IMG/VR virus record: IMGVR_UViG_3300028272_000005
Coordinates: 1 to 23,052 of that record
From: a virus
DNA: 23,052 nt
Reading direction: 5' to 3' (one strand)
Shown here: in pieces, positions 6,064 through 23,052 of the stretch
Layout of the letters: each line of letters starts with the position of its first letter
Numbering within the stretch: position 1 is the stretch's first letter
Notes under the pieces: model-generated
What the model was told of the DNA's origin: nothing
The model's database searches: none
Seen by the model: only the letters and a program-made list of their open reading frames with translations
Position numbers and translations under genes: made by a program

Positions 6064-6077
6064 GGTTTGTAAATTTT

Positions 6078-6373
6078 AAAAAAGGATCCAGATAACAGCC
6101 AGAAGTGGTAGAATGCTTAAGAGATAGCTCCACTTAATTCTGGATTTTTCCACAAGATGATATTCTTGCCAACCTTGAATCTTTACATCTTTAAACTTGA
6201 AAACCCACTGTTTATCCACGAGGGCTCGTGTTAATCTTTAATTCTTAAATCTTAAATCTTAAAAAGTAAGCTTTCTATCCTATTGACTTGAAATTATCAT
6301 TTCAATACTTTACTATCATACCCAGATAGTTTAGGGCTCTTACTTTTTCAATTTTTTCGTTATTGAATCCATT
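6078..6373 (-). ncRNA. Proposed structured non-coding RNA of about 300 nt
   Basis: The only long gene-free stretch in the window. It has no coding frame of note and an unusual density of inverted repeats. Read leftward, it starts about 10 bases after an AGAACAAA motif (6372-6386). A 10-bp helix (6339-6348 with 6261-6270) encloses TAGG/CCTA (6332-6335 with 6279-6282) and two hairpins: ACTATC/GATAGT (6312-6330, 7-base loop) and TTGAAAT/ATTTCAA (6288-6305). Next come an A/T-rich linker with AAGATTT repeats, a hairpin CACGA-GCCC-TCGTG on the minus strand (6217-6230), and a 3' domain (6086-6145) where TCTGGAT can pair with either of two CCAGA copies. It ends GGATCC then six T. It matches none of RNase P RNA, tmRNA, 6S RNA or group I/II introns as far as I can tell by eye. 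The direction is inferred from the motif and the end T-run. Confidence 0.5.
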
Positions 6374-6386
6374 TTAATTTTGTTCT
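6372..6386 (-). promoter_or_regulatory. AGAACAAA promoter-like motif, upstream of the proposed RNA
   Basis: Minus strand AGAACAAAATTAAAA. Its first base is the last base of the stop codon of the DIP1984-like gene. No leftward coding gene follows, only the structured region and the tRNA, so this copy suggests that region is transcribed for its own sake. Confidence 0.55.
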
Positions 6387-6907
6387 TAATCTTCTATAAG
6401 ATCAGTAGTAGCGTTAATAACTTCGAGTCTAGAATCTATTGTGTTATAGAGATCTTCCCATTTTCTGAGACCTTTGTTACGATCTTCTTCTTTGTAAAAT
6501 CTTATTACATGAGGTGTTTTATCTCCTCCTGATACATTTGATGAATGTTGTTGTCGTAATCTAGAAGAGCCTTCATTATCGTTCATAGATCTAAATGTAT
6601 TAATTTGAAGGGCTGCCAATTTTCTTTTGATAATTAACATATCACTCAAAGAATAATCTTTACTGTCGATATATACAATAGTTTCCAGATTAGTTTTTTC
6701 GATTTGTTTTTTAATTTTTAAATATTCGATTATGAGATCATTATTAGACTGAACTAGATTTAGTACTTCTTGTTCTTGTTTAGATTCTGTTTCAAATAAT
6801 GGCCTTTCAGTTGATACCATTGATGAATATCTAGTTATTTCTTCACAGTTACTCTTCATCCTTTTTTCAATTACTTTTAGTTTTTTCATTGCTTCAACAA
6901 GTTTCAT
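6386..6907 (-). CDS. DIP1984-like (septicolysin-like) helical protein
   Basis: A 173-residue protein whose first 120 residues follow the plan of the bacterial DIP1984 family: a MKLVEAMKKLKVIEKRM opening (family MKLAEALxxRxxLQxR), a central charged segment, an LIxxIxxxNxxT-like helix (here KIKKQIEKTNLETIVYI), then the SLSDMLIIKRKLAAL helix (family TLTDALAxRDxLxxR). The C-terminal 60 residues add a basic, Ser/Asn-rich stretch and a final acidic helix. The biochemical role of the family is not settled; it is sometimes named septicolysin, and I would not infer toxicity. ATG follows GGGAGG. It is a lone leftward gene after the divergent region 6908-7097. Confidence 0.6.
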   Translation of the reverse strand: MKLVEAMKKLKVIEKRMKSNCEEITRYSSMVSTERPLFETESKQEQEVLNLVQSNNDLIIEYLKIKKQIEKTNLETIVYIDSKDYSLSDMLIIKRKLAALQINTFRSMNDNEGSSRLRQQHSSNVSGGDKTPHVIRFYKEEDRNKGLRKWEDLYNTIDSRLEVINATTDLIED

Positions 6908-7639: not shown

Positions 7640-7678
7640 AATCTAATTAAAAGAATATAAATGTACTCTAGATTTTAT
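7636..7678 (-). terminator. Terminator of the TnpB-like gene
   Basis: On the minus strand, ATAAAATCTA (7678-7669) pairs with TAGATTTTAT (7645-7636), a 10-bp stem followed by TTGTTT. It contains the last codons and stop of the TnpB-like gene and is also where the rightward peptide gene ends. Confidence 0.6.
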
Positions 7679-8950
7679 ATTATATAGACTGAAAACTCTA
7701 AAAGTAAAGTTATTTAGAGAACTTCTGTAGTTCAATTTCGAAGTTTTTGCAACAGAAAATAAGTCTTTCCAAGATGTATAAGTCAAATCTTTAGCTTCTT
7801 TCCATAAGTTTGAAAGATCATCTACCTTGATAAGTCTTGGATAAAACCAGTTTTTCTGCCATTTGTGAAAACCTCGTCTTGAAATTTCGATTGACGAAGC
7901 CACCATATCGGGGTGTTTTTCTCCGTGAAGAATATTCCCGACAAAACTTGAGTAAACTGGATTAATCTCTACAAATTCTATTTCATAAATGTTACATCTT
8001 TTTCTTAAGTTGTTTGTTAAATCATTTCGATTCCAACAGTTATTTACTAATCTATTGAAATTTTTACCTTTCTTATGGTTTTTAGTTTCAATTTGTAGTT
8101 CTTCAATTGAAAATTTAGAACACTTGAAATGTAAAGATTGAGAAATTAAAAATTTCGAAATTTCAAAAATCTCAAATGATTTCTTGTTATTTTGATGAAT
8201 TTGTTTTGAATGATTAGAACTTACTCTAAGTTTTTGATTTAATTCTTTATTTTCGATAACTCCAGTTTTTAGAATTTGAAAATTATCTTGAGAATCAAAT
8301 TCTAGTACAGACCAACCGATATAATTTGGATTTAAGTCAATTCCAAAAACTCGAGATTTGTTTAATTGAATTTGTTCTTGTTTTAGAATTTTTTCATCAA
8401 ATATAATCCAAATTTCTGAATTTGATAATCTAATTGTAAATGGAACTTTACAATTTTTACTAAGTTCCTCTAGTTTAAATAAATTTCTTTTATGGTTTTT
8501 TCTAAGATTTGGAAGTTCAATTTTAATTTTAATTCCAGATTTTGGTTTAAAGATAATTCTGTTATTTTCGATTACATCTAACTCAAACTTTCTGTTGCCT
8601 TTTTTAGGAGCTTCACCTTGAATACAAAGAGGATGAAGTCGAAGTTCTTTCCACTGATCTTTGGAAATCTTACCTTCTGATCTTAGTTTTAGATTTTTCT
8701 TTCCACCAAAGACTATTTTACCACTAGGAACTTTTTGAAACCATGATTTACCTTCTTTAATTGCACACTGGACAAACCAGGAATCAGATAAACTATTGAA
8801 AATATTCTTACTTTTAATAAGCTGTCGAATATCTTTCTCATTCAAACCCTCGACAAAACGATTATAAGAGAATCTCATACAGGAATTAAATTCTCGAAGA
8901 TAATCACTGATATCAATTTGGTTTTGAATAGGAAGTTTTATGGTTATCAC
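7643..8950 (-). CDS. TnpB-like RuvC nuclease without zinc finger
   Basis: A 435-residue protein related to the TnpB/Cas12 RuvC group. RuvC-I is VFGIDLNPNYIGWSVLEF (201-218, Asp205). RuvC-II is FSIEELQIETKNHKKGKNFN (280-299, Glu283). RuvC-III is EINPVYSSFVGN...EKHPDMVASSIEISRRGF (328-361, Asp348). All three catalytic acids are present. Classical TnpB has a CxxC...CxxC finger between RuvC-II and III; here there is none, as in a branch of TnpB-related proteins ending TSxxG...HxAAxxIxRR. No TnpA gene lies beside it, and I see no IS200/IS605 terminal hairpins. It has its own AGAACAAA motif and terminator, so it looks like a resident phage gene. ATG follows AAGGAAC. It may be an RNA-guided nuclease or a derived regulator. 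Confidence 0.78.
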   Translation of the reverse strand: MITIKLPIQNQIDISDYLREFNSCMRFSYNRFVEGLNEKDIRQLIKSKNIFNSLSDSWFVQCAIKEGKSWFQKVPSGKIVFGGKKNLKLRSEGKISKDQWKELRLHPLCIQGEAPKKGNRKFELDVIENNRIIFKPKSGIKIKIELPNLRKNHKRNLFKLEELSKNCKVPFTIRLSNSEIWIIFDEKILKQEQIQLNKSRVFGIDLNPNYIGWSVLEFDSQDNFQILKTGVIENKELNQKLRVSSNHSKQIHQNNKKSFEIFEISKFLISQSLHFKCSKFSIEELQIETKNHKKGKNFNRLVNNCWNRNDLTNNLRKRCNIYEIEFVEINPVYSSFVGNILHGEKHPDMVASSIEISRRGFHKWQKNWFYPRLIKVDDLSNLWKEAKDLTYTSWKDLFSVAKTSKLNYRSSLNNFTFRVFSLYNIKSRVHLYSFN

Positions 8951-11374: not shown

Positions 11375-11902
11375 TTATTTGTTTTTTCTAATATTTTTTC
11401 TAATTGTGTTTGCTAATTTAATTGATATAACTGGAGTTCCAAGATTATATTTGTTTCTTATTCCAGTTCCCTTACATTCTTTACATGAAGTAGAGTAATC
11501 AATTTTAAGAAGATTTATGATCTTTGAAATATGTCCACGACCAAGACATTTAAGACAATTATATTCTCCTATAACACCTTTACCATTACAGTTTTTACAA
11601 GGTACAGAAATTACTTCTTTTTTAAATTTATAAATTTCTCCTGTGCCTTTACAATTAGGACATATATTATTTAAATCAGGTTCAATTTCAAATCTTCCTT
11701 TTTCTGACATTTGAAATTCAATTAATCTTTGAATCAATAAATTTCTTGCCTTGATAAGATCTTTAACGGGTAATTTATTTGAATTTATTTTGGTTCTAAA
11801 TCTAGTAATTACATGTGAAATAGCTTTTGTTGAAGTTTCTTGTTCTTTAATACTTAGTAAGTTACATGCCTTTTTGATTTCTAAAATTTGTTGATCATTC
11901 AT
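11375..11902 (-). CDS. DnaJ-type four-repeat zinc-finger protein
   Basis: A 175-residue protein with four CxxCxGxG repeats: CPNCKGTG, CKNCNGKG, CLKCLGRG and CKECKGTG, at about residues 81-147. In DnaJ/Hsp40 four such repeats form two zinc sites that bind unfolded protein. There is no J-domain (no HPD motif), so it is not a complete DnaJ. The N-terminal 75 residues are helical, and the end is a basic tail TIRKNIRKNK. I chose the ATG at 11902 (AAAGGAGTG upstream) rather than an ATG 22 codons earlier with no ribosome site. It is the sole leftward gene after the divergent region 11903-12064. Shorter two-repeat relatives lie at 18071, 20176 and 20630. Confidence 0.75.
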   Translation of the reverse strand: MNDQQILEIKKACNLLSIKEQETSTKAISHVITRFRTKINSNKLPVKDLIKARNLLIQRLIEFQMSEKGRFEIEPDLNNICPNCKGTGEIYKFKKEVISVPCKNCNGKGVIGEYNCLKCLGRGHISKIINLLKIDYSTSCKECKGTGIRNKYNLGTPVISIKLANTIRKNIRKNK

Positions 11903-11982
11903 TTTTACACTCCTTTTTATAAAATTAAAGTTTAAAAATTTTGAATGTTTCTTAAAAATAACATCCAACTTATTCTCTAGTA

Positions 11983-12064: not shown

Positions 12065-15000
12065 TTGTTTTCTATCAAAAATTCTTTTGCTAATTGTTCA
12101 ATATGTCCTTTACTAGATGCACCATCATGTATTCTTGAAACAAATTGTGAAGATGACTTGACTCAAGTAGAGATTATTTTTATAGCTGAAAATCCTGGAA
12201 AGGAAGAATGTAATAGTGGTGTTCCTCTAATTGGCAAAGCAGGTAAAATTTTTCGAGAACCGTTTAAAAGATATGGTTTAGATAAGTTAAAATATCTTCT
12301 AATTAATATTGTATTATGTCAAACAATTAATAAGGATGGTACGACAGGAAACCCTACAGATGAAGTTATTAATTTATGTAAATCTAATTGTTTTAATATT
12401 ATAGATATATGTAAACCTAAGCTTATAGTTCTAATGGGATCAACACCCATGAAAGCTTTTGAAATAGCTAAAACAGGAATTACTGGTTTTAGAGGCAAAG
12501 TATATGAATGGAAGAAGTATAAAACATTTTTAACTTTTCACCCATCATTTATAAATTATAATAGAAATATGAAACCAGTTTTTGAAGGAGATTTCTTGAC
12601 AATATCTAATTTAATGGGAGGAGAGCAAATTAAAAAACAAAAAACTAAAACAACAGGAAAAAAAGGAGTACACTATTATAAGATTCCAGAAAAATTTTAT
12701 TCTAATGATTATAGATTAGTAGATATTCAATATATGAATTATACTGGAGAAGTATTATATATATTTAGAGATAAAGATAATGTTAAAATATATCATAAAG
12801 AAAAGATAGATTATATATGTTATCAAGTACCAGATGGAGTAGAAGCCAGACATATAATAAACTATAATGATCTAGAACAAGTAAAAGTTCCATATAAGGA
12901 GAAATATAGTTTAAATCCTGAAATAACATATGAGGGGGATGTTCGACTTACAACTAAACTAGCTCAAGATTATTATTTACAAAGCAAAGGTGAAGCAGAT
13001 GAAGTTGATCTAAATATATTATATATTGATATAGAAACTTTTTCTAAAGAAAAAGGATTTCCAAAAGTTGAAGAAGCTAATCAAAATATAGTTATGATAA
13101 CTTATTCATATCATAATAATAAAACTACTTATGTAGTAGATAATAAAACTTTTTTAAATAAAGAAGATAAAACTGTAGATATTAATTTTAAAGATAATGA
13201 ACTGAAAATATACAATAATGAAAAAGATCTTTTAAACAACTTTATAAAAGATTTTAAAGATATTGATTGTGATATAGTTTCTGGATGGCATAGTACAGGT
13301 TTTGATATTCCTTATATTTTTTATAGATGTAAAAAAATAGGAATAAACCCAGAAAAATTATCTAAGTTTAATAATGTAGATGTAGATTTAAGATATAATT
13401 CATGTAATATTATTGGTTGTGTTGTTTTAGATCAATTAACCTTATATAGAAGTTATACTAGTACTAAAAAGGAGAATTACAAACTTGGTACAATTTCTAA
13501 TATAGAAGTTGGGGAAACTAAACTTGAAGAAGGAAGTAATTTTAGTAATATATATCTAGAAGATATTAATCAAGCTATTAAATATAATGTTAGAGATGTA
13601 GATCTTCTTGTAAGATTAGAAAATAAATTAAAACATATTTCCCTTCAAAATGAAACAAGAAAGTTAAGTAAGAATACTTTTAAATCTTCATCTAGTGTTA
13701 TGGGCATGTTAGATTCCTTGGTTAATGTCTGGTTAAAAGAAAAAGGTCTATCTTCTAAAAATGCCAATTTACATTCTGAATCTGTTAAGTTTGAAGGAGC
13801 ATTTGTTCAAGATCCAATAAGAGGTTTACATCAATATATTTGTGATTTTGACTTTTCAAGTCTGTATCCATCAAATGTTATCACTTATAATATTGGAATT
13901 AATACTTTTGTAATGAAGTTTAAAGATACAAGTTTAGCTTATGAGTTTTTATATGATATAGATAATTTACCAGAAGAGATTGAAATTATTGAAGATCCAG
14001 TTTTTTCGAGTAAATTAATTAAAATTACTAAAAAAGAACTTATTGATAGAGTTTATAATAAAAGTTTAATATGTACTATATCTGGCTGCTTTTTCAAACC
14101 TCATCATGAAGAATTGTCTTTTTATAGTGAAATTTTAGAGAATCTTTTATCAATTAGAAAAGATTTTAAAGATAAGATGTTTGAATTTAAACAAAAAGGA
14201 GATGAAGAAAAAAGAGCTAGATATGATACTATGCAAAGTGCTGCTAAAATCTCAGCAAATGCATTATATGGTTTGTTGGGAAATCATATTTTTAGATTTT
14301 TTAATGTAGATCTTGCTCGTTCAATTACTTTATCTGGACAAGAGGCTTTGAAAAGAACTATCATAGAATCTGAATATTTTGTAGATAATTTAAAAAGTGG
14401 AGATTGTAATACTCCAAATAAGTTAAGTAAAAAAGAAATGTATGGTGAATTAGATCGAGAATTAAAGTATGTTATAGCTGGAGACACAGACTCTGTTTTT
14501 ATAATGTTTGATAGTCTAGTTGATAGAAGTAAAAAAGAAGATGAAATTTTAAATGATATTCACTTGTGGTGTGATAAAACTCAAGATTTTTTGAATAATG
14601 AAATTATTAGTAAAATGGTTGAAAATCATAATGTTCCTTCTGAAAGAAATAGATTAGAATTAAAAAATGAACTATTAATTAGAAAAGCTTTATTTTTAGA
14701 AAAAAAGCATTATGCTATGTGGACAATCGAGCAGGAAGGCAGAAAAACAGATCAGATTGTTTCTATGGGCATTTCTACCAAGCGGTCTGATCGATCTACA
14801 GCATCAAAAGAATACTTAGAAGAATTGCTTAATATAATGTTAAAAGATGATAAATTCTCAATAGTTAAAATAAACAAATTTGTTGAAAGAAGAGCCAAAG
14901 ATGTTTTAGAAAAAATTAAAAACGGAGATAAGAGCATTGCAAAACCTGCTGCATGGACTAAAGATTTGAAAAGTTATAAAGTTGTCCCTCAAAATGTTAG

Positions 15001-15301
15001 AGGTTGTTTAACATGGAACAAACTATTATATGAGGAATTCTCAGCTGGAGATAAGGGGTATCTCTTTAAAATTCAAGGGATAGATAGAGATAAAGCACCA
15101 AAAGAAGTTGTAGAAAAATATGAAAAAGAATTTGTAGCAAAAGGGAAAAAATTAGATGTGATTTGTGTGCCAGATTCAGAAAAGAGATTACCTGAATATT
15201 TTATTTCTGATGTCAAGGCTATGTTTAAGTTTCACTGGCAAGATCGTGTAGATGAATTTTTAAAGTCGCTGATTAAAACTGATAAAGTTTTAAAAATTTA
15301 G
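12065..15301 (+). CDS. Fused family-4-like uracil-DNA glycosylase and family B DNA polymerase
   Basis: A 1078-residue replicative polymerase with an added N-terminal repair domain. Residues 1-186 resemble family 4 uracil-DNA glycosylase: AENPGKEECNSGVPLIGKAGK (41-61), FHPSF (158-162), and cysteines 11, 14, 85 and 105 in the 4Fe-4S order. Residues about 315-530 form the 3'-5' exonuclease: YIDIET (Asp322, Glu324), STGFDIPY (Asp414) and YNVRD (Asp511). The polymerase motifs are DFDFSSLYPS (594-603), KISANALYG (728-736) and AGDTDS (805-810), plus KKHY (880-883). Key residues look intact in both enzymes. The start is TTG, five bases after GGAGG; I see no better one. The role would be copying phage DNA while detecting or removing uracil. 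A homing endonuclease gene follows at 24 bases. Confidence 0.93.
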   Translation: MFSIKNSFANCSICPLLDAPSCILETNCEDDLTQVEIIFIAENPGKEECNSGVPLIGKAGKIFREPFKRYGLDKLKYLLINIVLCQTINKDGTTGNPTDEVINLCKSNCFNIIDICKPKLIVLMGSTPMKAFEIAKTGITGFRGKVYEWKKYKTFLTFHPSFINYNRNMKPVFEGDFLTISNLMGGEQIKKQKTKTTGKKGVHYYKIPEKFYSNDYRLVDIQYMNYTGEVLYIFRDKDNVKIYHKEKIDYICYQVPDGVEARHIINYNDLEQVKVPYKEKYSLNPEITYEGDVRLTTKLAQDYYLQSKGEADEVDLNILYIDIETFSKEKGFPKVEEANQNIVMITYSYHNNKTTYVVDNKTFLNKEDKTVDINFKDNELKIYNNEKDLLNNFIKDFKDIDCDIVSGWHSTGFDIPYIFYRCKKIGINPEKLSKFNNVDVDLRYNSCNIIGCVVLDQLTLYRSYTSTKKENYKLGTISNIEVGETKLEEGSNFSNIYLEDINQAIKYNVRDVDLLVRLENKLKHISLQNETRKLSKNTFKSSSSVMGMLDSLVNVWLKEKGLSSKNANLHSESVKFEGAFVQDPIRGLHQYICDFDFSSLYPSNVITYNIGINTFVMKFKDTSLAYEFLYDIDNLPEEIEIIEDPVFSSKLIKITKKELIDRVYNKSLICTISGCFFKPHHEELSFYSEILENLLSIRKDFKDKMFEFKQKGDEEKRARYDTMQSAAKISANALYGLLGNHIFRFFNVDLARSITLSGQEALKRTIIESEYFVDNLKSGDCNTPNKLSKKEMYGELDRELKYVIAGDTDSVFIMFDSLVDRSKKEDEILNDIHLWCDKTQDFLNNEIISKMVENHNVPSERNRLELKNELLIRKALFLEKKHYAMWTIEQEGRKTDQIVSMGISTKRSDRSTASKEYLEELLNIMLKDDKFSIVKINKFVERRAKDVLEKIKNGDKSIAKPAAWTKDLKSYKVVPQNVRGCLTWNKLLYEEFSAGDKGYLFKIQGIDRDKAPKEVVEKYEKEFVAKGKKLDVICVPDSEKRLPEYFISDVKAMFKFHWQDRVDEFLKSLIKTDKVLKI

Positions 15302-15324: not shown

Positions 15325-16170
15325 ATGATTCATATATGTGATTATGGATGTGGGCAAGAAGCTAAATTTCAATTTAAGAATGGAAAATGGTGTTGTTCTA
15401 AAAGTTGTAAATCTTGTCCAGCTCAAAGAGAGAGATTTAGGGGAGAAAATAAATCAAAAGGGTTTTTTGGAAAACACCATTCTAAAGAAACTAGAAAGAG
15501 ACAAAGTGAAGCCAATAGTGGAGAAAATCATCCCAGAGGAATGCTTGGAAAACATCATTCTGAAGAAACTAGAAAGAGACAAAGTGAAGCCAATAGTGGA
15601 GAAAATCATCCAAATTTTGGAAAAAACTTTTCAGAAGAACATAAGAAGAAATTAAGTGAATCACATACTGGAAAAAGAAGAATTACATATGAAAGGATTA
15701 AAGAATTTGCTGAAAATGAAGGTTTTGAATTTCTCATGACTGAGAATGAATATAAAGAAAATTATAAAGATCAATATTCAGAATTATGGTTTAGATGTTC
15801 AAAAGGTTTCAAGTTTCCTACAAATTGGAGTAATTTCAGAGATGGAACTATTAGATGTCCAGAATGTGTTAAAGAAAGACAAAGACAAAGCGGAATTGTT
15901 CCAAACTACAATCCAGAAGGATGTAGAATGATAGACAAGTATGGAAATGAAAATAATTATAATTTTCAACATGCTGAGAATGGTGGAGAATATCATATTA
16001 AAGAACTAGGTTATTGGGTTGATGGATATGATAAAGAAAGAAACACAGTTATAGAAATAGATGAGTACCATCACTTTGATAGAGATGGAAATATATCTGA
16101 AAAAGATGTTCAAAGACAAAAAGAAATAACAGATTTTTTGGGATGTAAATTTGTAAGATTGAGAATATAA
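15325..16170 (+). CDS. Homing endonuclease: zinc N-terminus, NUMOD3 repeats, PD-(D/E)xK-like end
   Basis: A 281-residue free-standing endonuclease. Parts in order: a cysteine-rich N-terminus (CDYGCGQEAKF, then WCCSKSCKSCP); three NUMOD3-type DNA-binding repeats of the GKHHSEETRKRQSEANSGEN kind (about 49-115); a CxxC-containing domain with YSELWFRCSKG, WSNFRDGTIRCPEC (about 151-180); and a C-terminal nuclease-like segment YWVDGYDKERNTVIEIDEYHHFD, RQKEITDFLGCKFVRLRI. The D-x(n)-EID pattern with late KFVR resembles Vsr/EDxHD-type homing nucleases. Two of the NUMOD3 repeats share 47 identical bases. ATG has only a weak AAGGATT site. A relative with the same N-terminus begins at 22518. Its place next to the polymerase gene fits mobile endonucleases that target replication genes. 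Confidence 0.8.
   Translation: MIHICDYGCGQEAKFQFKNGKWCCSKSCKSCPAQRERFRGENKSKGFFGKHHSKETRKRQSEANSGENHPRGMLGKHHSEETRKRQSEANSGENHPNFGKNFSEEHKKKLSESHTGKRRITYERIKEFAENEGFEFLMTENEYKENYKDQYSELWFRCSKGFKFPTNWSNFRDGTIRCPECVKERQRQSGIVPNYNPEGCRMIDKYGNENNYNFQHAENGGEYHIKELGYWVDGYDKERNTVIEIDEYHHFDRDGNISEKDVQRQKEITDFLGCKFVRLRI
15487..15611 (+). repeat. Near-tandem repeat of NUMOD3 modules
   Basis: 47 bases at 15487-15533 recur exactly at 15565-15611, a 78-base (26-residue) period. It encodes ETRKRQSEANSGENHP twice. Identity at the base level suggests recent module duplication or gene conversion within the endonuclease. Confidence 0.92.
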
Positions 16171-16216: not shown

Positions 16217-16891
16217 ATGGAAAAAGAAGTTCATTTAATTGAAAACATGACTAGCTGGCAAGGGGAAGGTGTTTCTAGTGGTCAAAGGATGATAATTCTT
16301 AGGTTTAAAAGATGCAACAGGATTGAATCTGGAAACGGTTGTCCTTGGTGTGATACAGCGACTAAACTGAGAATTAGTCAGGAATCAAGATATAAAGTTT
16401 CAGAAATACAAAAAGTTATAAATATGGAGAAAGCTGGGATTATGATAACCGGAGGGGAGCCGACTTATGATAATAACTTTAAGGAAACAGTTCTTCTTCT
16501 AAATAATTTAGAATATAATATAGCTAATGTGGAAACAAATGGTTTTAATCTTATTGATCTTATTAAAGAAGTCGACAAATCTAAGCCAGTATTATATTCT
16601 TACTCTCCAAAGATTTTTACAAAAAAAGAATTAAAAGAAGAGAAAGAAAGAAGTAAAATTTTATCTAAATATTCAAACGTATATTATAAAGTAGTTTATG
16701 AGTATAGACAAATTATACATGAATATTTAAAGTTTCTTGAAGAGTTAAAAATTCATAATCGAGTATTTTTAATGCCACAGGGTTCTACAAAAACTGATTT
16801 ACTAGTAAATGCACCAGATGTTTTTGATGTAGCAGAAAAATATAAATTTGGATTTAGTTCTAGAAATCATATTATTTATAGTTTTATTTAG
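16217..16891 (+). CDS. queE: QueE-like 7-carboxy-7-deazaguanine synthase (radical SAM)
   Basis: A 224-residue radical SAM enzyme. QueE rearranges 6-carboxytetrahydropterin to 7-carboxy-7-deazaguanine, the substrate of QueC. The opening SWQGEGVSSGQRMIILRFKRCN (13-34) matches the family E-x-x-x-GEG-x-x-G...R-x-x-x-CN. The cluster cysteines are Cys33, Cys42 and Cys45 (CNRIESGNGCPWCDT), spaced C-x8-C-x2-C. ITGGEP (77-82) is the SAM-binding motif. The late YSPK and KVVYE segments fit the family too. ATG follows AGAGAGG. Together with QueC (2137) and the DpdA-like protein (18797) it forms a partial phage 7-deazaguanine pathway. FolE and QueD, needed upstream, are not in the window. Confidence 0.9.
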   Translation: MEKEVHLIENMTSWQGEGVSSGQRMIILRFKRCNRIESGNGCPWCDTATKLRISQESRYKVSEIQKVINMEKAGIMITGGEPTYDNNFKETVLLLNNLEYNIANVETNGFNLIDLIKEVDKSKPVLYSYSPKIFTKKELKEEKERSKILSKYSNVYYKVVYEYRQIIHEYLKFLEELKIHNRVFLMPQGSTKTDLLVNAPDVFDVAEKYKFGFSSRNHIIYSFI

Positions 16892-17543: not shown

Positions 17544-18074
17544 ATGTCGTGTGTTGTAGGTATTTCTCAAAAAGGAATAGTTTATATAGGTGGTGATAGT
17601 TTGTGTTCTTTTGAAGGTGAAGTTAGACATGTAACAACACCTAAAGTTTTTAAAAATAATGATTATTTGATTGGTTTTTGTGGTAACGTTCGACAAGGTC
17701 AATTACTTTATAGTTGTTGTTGGAAACCTCCAATTAATATTGTAAATTTTGTAGATGAAATTAGAAGACATTTTGATAAAAAAGGTTGTTTAAAAACTGG
17801 AGAAAATGGCGAAGATTTATGTGGGTGTAATTTTCTTATAGGTTTTAAAAAGAAGTTATATGAAATACATGCTAATTTTCAAATTGTTGAATTAGAAGAT
17901 AACTTTTCTGCTATTGGAGAGGGTAGTGTTTTTGCTTTAGGTTCTTTGTATGAAACAAGTAAAAAAAATTCAGGTTTAAATATAGAGCCTACAGAAAGAA
18001 TTATTAGATCTCTAAATTGTTCCTCATATTTTTGCAGTAGTGTAGGAGGAGATTTCAATATCTTAGAAATATGA
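17544..18074 (+). CDS. HslV/proteasome-like Ntn hydrolase
   Basis: A 176-residue protein of the proteasome beta/HslV fold. It begins MSCVVGISQKGIVYIGGDSL (compare HslV TTIVAVRRGGKVVIGGDGQ). If Met is removed, Ser2 would occupy the nucleophile position that is Thr in HslV; Cys3 is an alternative. Other matching parts are KVFKNNDYLIGFCGNVRQG (34-52), NFLIGFKKKLYEIHANFQIVELEDNFSAIGEGSVFALGSLYE (96-137), and a late SVGGDFNI. Length fits HslV (about 175). It would cut proteins, or amide bonds, in a ring with a partner ATPase such as HslU or ClpX, but no ATPase lies beside it. ATG follows AAGAGG. It overlaps the next gene by four bases. The fold is fairly sure; catalysis is not. Confidence 0.78.
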   Translation: MSCVVGISQKGIVYIGGDSLCSFEGEVRHVTTPKVFKNNDYLIGFCGNVRQGQLLYSCCWKPPINIVNFVDEIRRHFDKKGCLKTGENGEDLCGCNFLIGFKKKLYEIHANFQIVELEDNFSAIGEGSVFALGSLYETSKKNSGLNIEPTERIIRSLNCSSYFCSSVGGDFNILEI

Positions 18075-18310
18075 AATTAAATGAAGGTGAGATAATTTGT
18101 GATAGGTGCAATGGAACTGGTAATGAACCAGGAAAAATAATATGTAGTAAATGTAGAGGAGAGGGAAAAATAGATTGGATTGATAATATATTTAATGGGA
18201 AAAGGGAAGGAAGTTGTTATTATATAAAACCTGGGGTTTATGCCAACGAGATTGATTTCAGTGTTTATTTTCCTAATTCATCTATAAAAACATCAGGGAG
18301 TGTGACATGA
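18071..18310 (+). CDS. Small CxxCxGxG protein with WIDNI motif, copy 1
   Basis: A 79-residue protein with two DnaJ-type half-fingers, CDRCNGTG and CSKCRGEG (about residues 10-34), enough for one zinc site, followed at once by KIDWIDNIFNGK. The same block (GEEICSKCNGTG...CxKCxGAGKLxWIDNI) occurs in the proteins at 20176 and 20630, so these are paralogues. The C-terminal 35 residues (YYIKPGVYANEIDFSVYFPN) look beta-rich and differ between copies. Start and stop both overlap neighbours as ATGA, so it is translated with the Ntn hydrolase and the macro-domain protein. I recall similar two-finger blocks inside phage proteins of unknown or structural role; function here is unknown. Confidence 0.75.
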   Translation: MKLNEGEIICDRCNGTGNEPGKIICSKCRGEGKIDWIDNIFNGKREGSCYYIKPGVYANEIDFSVYFPNSSIKTSGSVT

Positions 18311-18796: not shown

Positions 18797-20179
18797 GTGG
18801 TAAGATCTGGATATGTACTTGCTGGTTTTGAAACATTAGCAGCTATAATGAATAATTTTTTAAATAATACAAAAGATAGATATTTTGACAATTTTACAAG
18901 AAAAGACATTTCAAATTTCCTTTCTAAAACCTGTTCTGGGTTTCTTCATTCTTATGGACAAAGTTTCTCAAATAAAAAGAGCTATAAAAATTATAATAAA
19001 CTTGAAGCTAATCTTTATAGAAAATGTAGAGAAACTAGAATTTTTGATGATTCAAAATTTATTTCTGACAGTGGGGGATTTCAAATTTCTATTGGGAAAT
19101 TGACAAAAAAAGAATCATATTTACTTCTTCAGATGTATTATGAATTTTTAAAAGATCACCATGAAGTTTTAGATCAAGCTTTTGTTTTAGATGTACCTCC
19201 TGGTCCGAATTGTAATATTTTTAATGATTTTAATGATATATATCAGCTTAATCTAGAGTCATATCTTAAAGCTAAGAATCTTCCAGATGAAGTTCGGAAA
19301 AAAATGATTTACATTCATCATTTTAGAACACCTAAACTATGGGAAATATATACAAAAATTATGCGTGATAATGATATGTTTTCATCTTTTGAATATCATG
19401 GCACTGGAGGGATAGTCGCTAATATAGCTGGAGATATGTCAATTCCTTGTATTATATATGTTCTTCCAATTATTCCATTATTAAATGAATGTAAAAAATA
19501 CAATAGAAATTATTTGAATTTTCATGTACTAGGTGGAGCTAATTTTAGAGATATTTTGTTTTATGAACTTTTTAGAATTCATGTTCTAGAACAACATAAA
19601 ATTGATCTTAATATAACTTATGATTCATCAGGGTTATTTAAAGGTTTAATGATAGGAAGATTTATTAATGTTGTTGATGAAAATATTTTTAAGAAAATAG
19701 ATATTAGATCTCAAAAACTTGACAAGAGATTTAAAGATAATATAAGAGTTGTTGATAAATATCAACAAGAAATTGATAGGCTTTCTAAAGATTATAATTT
19801 CAAATCAATTGGTCTAAATAATGTTTATGATGATAATACTGGAACATTTCATGAAGATGTAAAAGTTTATACTATGTTATATGTTTTAAACCAGTTTTCG
19901 GAAATACAAACTTTTTTGAGAGAAGTAGTAATTGATTTATATGATAAGTACAAATCTAATGATATAGAAGAGTTTACTAAAAGTGTTGTTGAAGTAACTA
20001 AAAATCTAAATAGTGGGAAGGTAACAAAAAAACAAAAAGTTAAATCTTATAGTATTTTTAAATCTTTAGATATGTTAACTAATTTAGATGAAGATTATTG
20101 TCAATATATTGTGAATAAATTTTTGTCTAAAGATGAATTTGTGAATTTAGATCAAAATAGAAGGGTGTTGAAGATATGA
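18797..20179 (+). CDS. dpdA: DpdA-like tRNA-guanine transglycosylase homologue
   Basis: A 460-residue protein of the TGT superfamily, which swaps guanine for a 7-deazaguanine; phage DpdA members act on DNA. The signature DSGGFQ is at 91-96 (TGT base-recognition Asp). Further parts are QAFVLDVPPGP (127-137), IHHFRTP (173-179), FHVLGGANFRDILFYEL (242-258), where TGT has its GLGxG loop, and NITYDSSGLFKG (272-283), with Asp276 in the place of the nucleophile. I see no CxCxxC zinc motif after it. The C-terminal 140 residues are helical and have no TGT counterpart I know. GTG start follows AGAGGT. It is flanked by paralogous zinc proteins, and the DnaB gene lies three genes downstream. The DNA target is inferred from phage context plus QueC and QueE. 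Confidence 0.82.
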   Translation: MVRSGYVLAGFETLAAIMNNFLNNTKDRYFDNFTRKDISNFLSKTCSGFLHSYGQSFSNKKSYKNYNKLEANLYRKCRETRIFDDSKFISDSGGFQISIGKLTKKESYLLLQMYYEFLKDHHEVLDQAFVLDVPPGPNCNIFNDFNDIYQLNLESYLKAKNLPDEVRKKMIYIHHFRTPKLWEIYTKIMRDNDMFSSFEYHGTGGIVANIAGDMSIPCIIYVLPIIPLLNECKKYNRNYLNFHVLGGANFRDILFYELFRIHVLEQHKIDLNITYDSSGLFKGLMIGRFINVVDENIFKKIDIRSQKLDKRFKDNIRVVDKYQQEIDRLSKDYNFKSIGLNNVYDDNTGTFHEDVKVYTMLYVLNQFSEIQTFLREVVIDLYDKYKSNDIEEFTKSVVEVTKNLNSGKVTKKQKVKSYSIFKSLDMLTNLDEDYCQYIVNKFLSKDEFVNLDQNRRVLKI

Positions 20180-20619
20180 AAATAGAAAATGTAGTGAATT
20201 TTTTTAAAAATATTTCTTTACCTTTTGTAATTGAAAAGAATGTTTTTTTAGAAGAAGGTGAAGAAATTTGTTCTAAATGTAATGGAACAGGTAAATATAA
20301 TAAAGATGTTTGTTTAAAATGTTTTGGAGCAGGAAAATTAAACTGGATAGATAATATTACTAATAGTGAGAGAATTATTAAAAATAAAGATGATTTTTGT
20401 ATAAATAATTTATTTATAGAACCTTTAAAATATAGTATAATTAGAATTGAAAATTGTAATAGATTAAAATTATACAATTGTTCATTTAAGAATATTAATT
20501 TTAAAATTAAAAATTGTTTATATTTAAATGTTTGTAATTCATTTTTTGAAGGTTGTTTTCTTGAAATTTTATCATCATCAACAACAATTTGTTCAAATAA
20601 TTTTATTCAAAATAATTAA
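20176..20619 (+). CDS. CxxCxGxG-WIDNI protein with beta-helix-like end, copy 2
   Basis: A 147-residue protein. The N-terminal 25 residues are a short helix. Then comes the shared zinc block GEEICSKCNGTGKYNKDVCLKC then FGAGKLNWIDNI (about 28-61). The remainder has a regular pattern of short strands with repeated N-C-x pairs (IRIENCNRLKLYNCSFKN, FKIKNCLYLNVCNSFFEG, then CSNNFIQNN), like rungs of a right-handed parallel beta-helix. The start overlaps the DpdA-like stop by four bases (ATGA), so the two are co-translated. Zinc block plus beta-helix is unusual for an intracellular adaptor and could suit a virion or surface-binding role. Function unknown. Confidence 0.75.
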   Translation: MKIENVVNFFKNISLPFVIEKNVFLEEGEEICSKCNGTGKYNKDVCLKCFGAGKLNWIDNITNSERIIKNKDDFCINNLFIEPLKYSIIRIENCNRLKLYNCSFKNINFKIKNCLYLNVCNSFFEGCFLEILSSSTTICSNNFIQNN

Positions 20620-20629
20620 AGAGGTAATA

Positions 20630-20959
20630 ATGAATTATCAAATATTTTCTTTAGATGAAAAAAAATCTAATCTATTACAAGGTGAAGAAATTTGTTCTAA
20701 ATGTAATGGAACAGGTAAATATAATAAAGGTGTTTGTAATAAATGTTTTGGTGCAGGAAAACTAGATTGGATTGATAATATAATTGGTATGAATAGAAAA
20801 TTTTTTTGGTGGGGTGCAATTGATCATCCTCCTAAAGTTAATAACTATCTTGTAGAAATTTTTGATGAAATGGCTTTAAAGATGGCGAAGGAAATAGACA
20901 AAGAAATTTTAGAGACAATTTTTACTAACATAGGAATGAAACAAAAAGCAAAGGAGTAA
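20630..20959 (+). CDS. CxxCxGxG-WIDNI protein, copy 3
   Basis: A 109-residue protein, start ATG 20630 just after AAAGAGG; an upstream in-frame start would lie inside the previous gene. The zinc block GEEICSKCNGTGKYNKGVCNKC then FGAGKLDWIDNI (about 18-51) is nearly identical to that of copy 2, including long base-level identity at 20263-20303 and 20681-20721. The C-terminal half (GMNRKFFWWGAIDHPPKVNN, then LVEIFDEMALKMAKEIDKEI) is different, ending in an amphipathic helix. The WGAIDHPP segment recalls short C-terminal parts of some phage structural or head-completion proteins, a weak impression. It is followed three bases later by the helicase gene. Confidence 0.75.
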   Translation: MNYQIFSLDEKKSNLLQGEEICSKCNGTGKYNKGVCNKCFGAGKLDWIDNIIGMNRKFFWWGAIDHPPKVNNYLVEIFDEMALKMAKEIDKEILETIFTNIGMKQKAKE

Positions 20960-22517: not shown

Positions 22518-23052
22518 GTGGTTCACTTTTGTGATTATGGTTGTGGACAAGAAGCAAAATACCAATTTAAGAATGGAAATTGGTGCTGTTCTAAATATTG
22601 TCGTTCTTGTCCTGTTATTAGAAAGAAAATAACAAAAAAATTAAGAACTCCATTTAAAGGGATTAAAGAATTTGCTGAGAATGAAGGGTACGAGATTCTA
22701 TCAAAAGAAAAAGAATATAAAAATCAATTTTCATATTTAAAGTTCAGATGTCCAGAAGGCCATGAATATCTAGCTAAATGGAGCGACTTTAAACATTTAG
22801 GAATTAGATGTCCAATATGCTATGATAAAAAAATAAGAACTCCATTTGAAGATATTATAAAAATTGTTGAAAATAAAGGTTATACACTTATATCAAAAAA
22901 AGAAGATTATAAAAATGCATGTTCAAAATTGTGGTTTAGATGTTCAGAAGGTCATGAATTTCTTATGAGATGGGATAATTTTAAAAATGGAGGTCAAAGA
23001 TGTCCAGAGTGTTATAATGAAAAACGAAGAAATCCTTCTTTAAAAACTAGAA
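22518..23052 (+). CDS. Homing-endonuclease-like protein, 3' end beyond the window
   Basis: An open frame of 178 codons with no stop before the window ends. Start GTG 22518, seven to nine bases after GGGAG, aligns exactly with the start of the endonuclease at 15325. The N-terminus CDYGCGQEAKYQFKNGNWCC, SKYCRSCP is nearly the same as in that protein. There are no NUMOD3 repeats. Instead it has repeats of the unit IKEFAENEGYEILSKEKEYK...FRCPEGHEY...W-x-x-F...RCPxC, at about residues 50-110 and 112-172. These probably are small zinc-binding DNA-recognition modules. A nuclease domain would be expected beyond the edge, so the call rests on similarity to its partner. Confidence 0.72.
   Translation, partial: MVHFCDYGCGQEAKYQFKNGNWCCSKYCRSCPVIRKKITKKLRTPFKGIKEFAENEGYEILSKEKEYKNQFSYLKFRCPEGHEYLAKWSDFKHLGIRCPICYDKKIRTPFEDIIKIVENKGYTLISKKEDYKNACSKLWFRCSEGHEFLMRWDNFKNGGQRCPECYNEKRRNPSLKTR

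Follow-up and report, generated by a model that had tools for sequence, protein, structure and literature searches.

Does the interval at positions 6078-6386 of the window, by which we mean the whole 23,052-nt stretch of viral DNA analyzed here, encode a functional RNA, and what would such an RNA act with? A first-pass annotation had described it as a gene-free stretch holding an unrecognized structured RNA that has a promoter motif of its own. The interval is indeed not filled by any open reading frame of at least 50 aa. The sense strand of the RNA is the minus strand, where 287 nt, from the first base at 6370 to the end of the closing helix at 6084, occupy the gap between two phage genes. 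Read along this strand, the order of elements is the promoter-like motif AGAACAAA (6386-6379), the RNA (6370-6084), a T6 run, a terminator-like hairpin with a T9 run (6069-6005) and a tRNA-Pro (TGG) gene (5996-5921). The terminator-like hairpin between the RNA and the tRNA belongs to the window only and is not conserved across the RNA family.

With respect to folding energy, the minus strand of 6070-6390, from which the terminator is excluded, gave a z score of -2.05, which is modestly unusual at most; the values were -1.18 for the plus strand and -4.08 once the terminator hairpin was included. Because the single-sequence energy was just modestly unusual, the structure needed testing by comparison. 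Helices picked out by eye would not have proved an RNA, and it is the comparative evidence described below that does so. Specifically, the 10-bp helix AAAAAGUAAG/CUUACUUUUU that had been singled out earlier is part of the minimum-energy fold of the window but is not clearly conserved among relatives, in which a conserved form was sought and could not be established.

Relatives were found mainly through neighboring genes. With the DnaB-like helicase as anchor, IMG/VR relatives sharing the PolB-to-helicase gene order were recovered, and BLASTN inside these records identified RNA homologues in G002 (a 248-kb record; E 1.3e-6), in G004/G005 (E about 1e-20) and in G009. Alignment of the protein encoded upstream of the RNA added L125, L126 and L128 as carriers, and an exact-match scan of 2.9 million viral contigs for the RNA 3′ end, CACTNCTGGCTGYTNNNNGGAYCC, returned seven stretches, each belonging to a member, with L138 new. 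This gives seven further distinct homologues, all from uncultivated phages, and eight distinct sequences with the window (window, G002, G004/G005, G009, L125, L126, L128 and L138), each on an uncultivated fragment. The G004 and G005 RNAs are near-identical to each other, and G010 is the record of L126. Across the eight members the G+C content of the 3′ half spans 36% to 61%.

Other routes were less productive. Among 50,697 phage records, BLASTN with the RNA gave no convincing match and tblastn with the upstream protein gave none. ThyX as anchor yielded 53 loci with no common neighborhood, and TnpB and PolB as anchors led to no IMG/VR relative. LR756500 carries relatives of ThyX and TnpB, but neither the RNA nor the upstream gene, both of which were also missing from G003, though a tRNA array is present on its contig. 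The pattern CAAGTTTAAAGNNGTAAAG matched 15 contigs and was real in G002 alone, and the 3′-end pattern matched five times in about 85,000 bacterial and archaeal genomes (GTDB), each time in the absence of the remaining RNA, so that these matches were attributed to chance.

What the members have in common is a helix that closes the RNA, a pair of pseudoknots and another four hairpins, with many compensatory changes. The conserved helices, designated P1-P6, PK1 and PK2, were written out segment by segment, and each string was verified against its source. In the window, P1 closes the RNA through a 5′ strand GGAUUC AAUAACG (6370-6358) and a 3′ strand UGUUAUC U GGAUCC (6097-6084). PK1, an H-type pseudoknot (6337-6313), joins GCCC (6337-6334) to UGGG within the loop of the hairpin P2 (CUAUC/GAUAG, UGGGU in the loop), and it is followed by the hairpin P3, GAAAU-GAUA-AUUUC (6303-6290). 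In PK2 (6230-6203), the hairpin P4 (CACG/CGUG) is followed by a linker containing UAAA and then by GGGU (6206-6203), the pairing partner of the P4 loop GCCC. Beyond it lie the hairpins P5 (CAAGA/UCUUG, 6168-6153) and P6 (CCAG/CUGG plus GUGG/CCAC, 6143-6099), the latter just before the 3′ strand of P1. G002 has, immediately ahead of the RNA, a long and stable hairpin (L072:12016-12100) that was not seen in the other members.

The test for covarying pairs, which the first-pass annotation had proposed, revealed compensatory changes in two alignments. In a hand alignment fitted to the helices, 360 of 368 cells were canonical and 31 of 46 pairs showed double changes, and none of 5000 shuffles came close. 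P2 was canonical in all eight members with double changes in 5/5 pairs; P3 was canonical in 39/40 cells, with double changes in all pairs; and P5 was canonical in 38/40, with 13 further pair types. The PK2 pairing takes the forms CCGC/GCGG, CCCC/GGGG, CUCC/GGAG, GCAA/UUGC and GCCC/GGGU in different members. The GCCC/GGG pairing of PK1 is nearly invariant, and PK1 is therefore proposed from its geometry and unproved by covariation.

Since the hand alignment had been built to fit the helices, the count was repeated on the full-length RNAs as aligned by MAFFT without manual adjustment. In this blind alignment 93.3% of cells were paired, as against 37-46% when the partner was slid by 1-3 columns, and 14 pairs showed double changes; none of 500 shuffles reached any of these measures. 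P4 was paired in 100% and PK2 in 96.8% of cells, while P2 aligned less well (70% paired). Free of any choice of alignment, covariance models built from G002, G009, L126 and L128 only were then applied to the held-out members. The model of the 3′ half recovered the window (2e-16), L138 (3e-15), G004 (7e-12) and L125 (1e-5), and that of the 5′ half recovered L138 (4e-7), the window (9e-7) and G004 (2e-5) and missed L125. No convincing second copy of the RNA was found in any genome with the 3′-half model.

In terms of known RNA classes, Rfam cmscan of the window stretch returned nothing but the tRNA at the gathering thresholds and nothing relevant at E values up to 10, in line with what had been judged by eye, and the G002 RNA likewise had no match at E up to 10. 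As for tmRNA, which is marked by an RF00023 match, tRNA-like ends and a tag ORF, the RNA showed no match over the cut-off. A degraded protein gene is excluded because of the covariation and because the length differences among members break the frame. Overall, we regard the existence of this RNA family as close to certain. The alignments support a conserved, folded minus-strand RNA that is unrecognized both in Rfam and in the open-access papers that we checked, much as the first reading of the locus had anticipated.

A feature of the RNA that lacks conserved pairing is a pair of repeat arrays, each with about four copies of the 7-nt unit NYUHAAG, giving about eight periodic repeats per RNA. 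One array precedes P4 (array A, UUUAAGA UUUAAGA UUUAAGA AUUAAAG AUUAA, 6263-6231) and the other follows PK2 (array B, UUUCAAG UUUAAAG AUGUAAAG AUUCAAG, 6202-6169); in L125, a hairpin replaces part of the second. An AAG-to-AAG spacing of 7 nt occurs 33 times in nine RNAs (the eight members and L130, described below), compared with 2.0 ± 1.5 expected from dinucleotide shuffles, and echoes appear at 14-15 and 21-22 nt. The RNAs are related, so that these spacings are not independent events, yet the period is still evident inside single RNAs. Such a single-stranded 7-nt register would suit a docking strip for a repeated or oligomeric RNA-binding protein. A TRAP-like gene was sought in six phage records and none was found.

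Two further loci resemble the family. At L130:3513-3820, P1, P3, array A, PK2 and P6 can be made out by eye, with a covariance-model score of just E 0.19; this is a likely but unproven ninth member, which we left out of the count of eight. In L132, a 210-kb phage with a tmRNA, a long run of UNAAGG 7-nt repeats (L132:3773-3838) lies behind a distant DIP1984-like gene. The remaining RNA structure was looked for there and not found, and L132 is not counted as a member; its repeat stretch is possibly a far relative of the RNA.

With regard to transcription, the promoter-like motif AGAACAAA (6386-6379) lies 8 nt before the RNA and shares bases with the stop codon of the gene upstream. It occurs 12 times in the window against 3.0 expected, a count reached by none of 100 shuffles, and seven of the copies stand 27-45 nt before the start of a gene on the same strand, with one before the RNA. 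Three genomes, namely the window, G004 (L120:2539) and L138 (L138:660), have an AGAACAAA copy in this place, overlapping the stop codon and followed after 8-10 nt by P1. This constant spacing lends support to the earlier proposal of a promoter of the RNA's own, here termed promoter-like, and its position makes the first base of the RNA, or one close to it, the likely transcription start in these genomes. The remaining members lack AGAACAAA before the RNA, which in them is probably made by processing. A second promoter-like motif, CTATATATATTAAT (7016-7003), precedes the upstream gene, and its core, TATATATTAAT, is found before that gene in the window, G004 and L138.

The two motif classes are present on both strands of the window, AGAACAAA serving seven genes and the RNA and CTATATATATTAAT preceding minus-strand genes with their 5′ side at 2013, 6907 and 11968; they may mark differently timed transcription. 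Several other genes of the window can also be read. The family B DNA polymerase (12065-15301), which has full-length relatives in G001-G003 at about 47% identity, carries at its N-terminus a stretch reminiscent of a uracil-DNA glycosylase, as in a fusion. Genes that by eye are QueC-like (2137-2802), QueE-like (16217-16891) and TGT/DpdA-like (18797-20179) suggest 7-deazaguanine modification of the phage DNA. CxxCxGxG zinc-binding paralogues occur at 11375-11968, 18071-18310, 20176-20619 and 20528-20959, the first of which has anti-TRAP, DnaJ-like and antitermination Q-like profile matches. The related genes at 15325-16170 and 22518-23052 share a zinc ribbon-like start, CDYGCGQEA, and are perhaps homing endonucleases; the former also has a Vsr-like EIDEYHH motif.

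Which protein, then, might work with the RNA? In all eight members, the gene that precedes it on the same strand belongs to one protein family, represented in the window by a 173-aa DIP1984/DUF6847-like coiled-coil protein (6907-6386, minus strand). The RNA lies close behind the stop codon of this gene in seven of the eight, and in G002 one additional small gene lies between them. The AlphaFold model of the partner protein is confident (pLDDT 92), and its fold matches the Corynebacterium diphtheriae protein DIP1984 (3kdq), with a VIA-align Z of 12.4 over 149 residues (rmsd 6.0), the rows that follow having a Z of 8.6. Foldseek likewise places 3kdq at first rank (E 2.6e-3). Profile matches are weak and confined to some members (NF038048, best 5e-4; PF20935, best 1e-3), and the pI is near neutral, at 5.9-9.3 across members. 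We know of no RNA-binding role for DIP1984, and no RNA partner for its family appeared in the open-access literature searched; related proteins occur without the RNA in L131 and L133/L134. It is the gene order that points to a partnership between the RNA and the DIP1984-like protein.

The setting of the RNA is also shared. Downstream tRNA genes begin from about 10 nt (G002, L125) up to 1.3 kb (L138) away, and wherever the contig is long enough, the RNA of the relatives lies in or near an array of many tRNAs. A separate, true tmRNA is present in three large genomes (G002, G004 and G010). The nearest tRNA differs between genomes, so that the tRNA link may be one of location only. A tRNA with a CTA anticodon (called tRNA-Pyl), resembling an amber suppressor, was noted at L074:3726-3803 (G003), L076:784-860 (G002) and L138:8035-8112, and TAG recoding in these phages is possible.

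The constant protein neighbor and the nearby tRNA genes together suggest an RNA-protein tool of large phages. We assign a probability of roughly 0.4 to the reading in which the RNA and the DIP1984-like protein are the two halves of a ribonucleoprotein in a phage translation module. Under this model, the free-standing RNA of ~290 nt and the coiled-coil protein encoded upstream of it would form a complex expressed within a module of tRNA array and tmRNA. In the window, G004 and L138, AGAACAAA would direct transcription from the first base of P1 onward, and in the other members the RNA would be cut out of the partner-gene transcript. The unpaired UHAAG repeats on both sides of the pseudoknot would provide a multivalent docking strip, held in place by P1, the pseudoknots and P6, for a repeated or oligomeric protein, be it the partner or some other protein of phage or host. 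The most likely use during infection would be to sequester or rearrange a translation factor or subunit, or to aid tRNA maturation. The more specific proposal of a new class of phage ribonucleoprotein, in which a pseudoknotted RNA with two heptanucleotide arrays is loaded with DIP1984-like copies and acts on the host translation apparatus, is one that we hold tentatively and consider rather doubtful as a whole. If it were true, the DIP1984 family would gain its first RNA partner.

The same strongly conserved, intricate structure could also serve an assembly made of RNA only, of the GOLLD/ROOL sort, in which copies of the RNA would assemble with one another into a homo-oligomer or cage inside infected cells and the protein would be incidental. 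The setting of phage genomes, tRNA islands and pseudoknots is the same, but the RNA has at most half the length of GOLLD and ROOL and matches neither in Rfam, and its protein neighbor is constant, while ROOL has no known protein partner (PMC12286853); we consider this reading unlikely, if the best of the alternatives. Also unlikely, and next in order, is a decoy or sponge, whose UHAAG repeats would soak up the ribosome or an RNA-binding protein of the host, the neighboring protein being dispensable. About eight periodic unpaired repeats per RNA, within a translation module, are what a sponge might look like, but the constant neighbor gene and the elaborate pseudoknotted frame would be left unexplained, and the six phage records contained no TRAP-like protein.

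If the RNA were a cis element belonging to the upstream gene, or formed a small two-gene module with it (a 3′ UTR stabilizer, a processing signal or a type III RNA antitoxin), its position close behind the stop codon in seven of eight members would be accounted for, and repeats are also a feature of type III antitoxins. In type III toxin-antitoxin systems, an RNase toxin of ToxN fold is encoded beside an RNA of tandem ~36-nt repeats; here the neighbor has the DIP1984 fold and the repeats measure 7 nt. These differences, together with the small gene that intervenes in G002 and the promoter-like motif that the RNA has of its own in three genomes, make this explanation quite improbable.

The locus of an omega RNA is the 3′ end of tnpB, and the RNA terminates in a variable guide. 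The first-pass annotation suggested, as one possibility, that the RNA guides the TnpB-like nuclease at 7643-8950, and this phage RNA of a few hundred nucleotides does share window, strand and promoter motif with that gene. The suggestion is very improbable, given that the RNA does not overlap tnpB but lies 1.3 kb from it with other genes between, that it adjoins another gene in every genome, that both its ends form the conserved closing helix and leave no variable guide, and that no TnpB relative was found in the eight, possibly incomplete, records G002-G009, four of which (G002, G004, G005 and G009) carry the RNA. The TnpB-like protein (minus strand), with relatives in LR756500, Lak phages and Campylobacter phages, has apparently intact D/E/D residues and lacks the CxxC zinc finger.

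Compared with known systems, the partner protein shares its fold with the DIP1984/DUF6847 family (3kdq), to which some members also have weak profile matches, and differs in forming a phage branch with 15-18% identity and its own motifs, NC..I..YSS and RLEVINATT. TRAP-binding leader RNAs, such as the trp attenuator, present NAG-type triplets in a single strand with a period of about 5. The periodic triplets of the present RNA suggest a comparable multivalent docking strip, by analogy only, but they have a period of 7 and are arranged as about four units on either side of a pseudoknot, and no TRAP gene was found in the six phage records. With this RNA, the short list of intricate phage RNAs that lack an assigned function gains a well-supported family, and two questions become testable, namely the role of tRNA-island RNAs in large phages and the role of the DIP1984 family. 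On that list, GOLLD and ROOL are phage or prophage RNAs that often lie near tRNA islands and have elaborate folds with pseudoknots, with a ROOL example of 659 nt and many GOLLD RNAs exceeding 800 (PMC12286853). Our RNA resembles them in its phage location near tRNA islands and in its elaborate, conserved, pseudoknotted fold, but at ~290 nt, and with no covariance-model match to either, it offers what ROOL does not: a constant protein gene upstream and regular 7-nt repeat arrays that predict a binding register.
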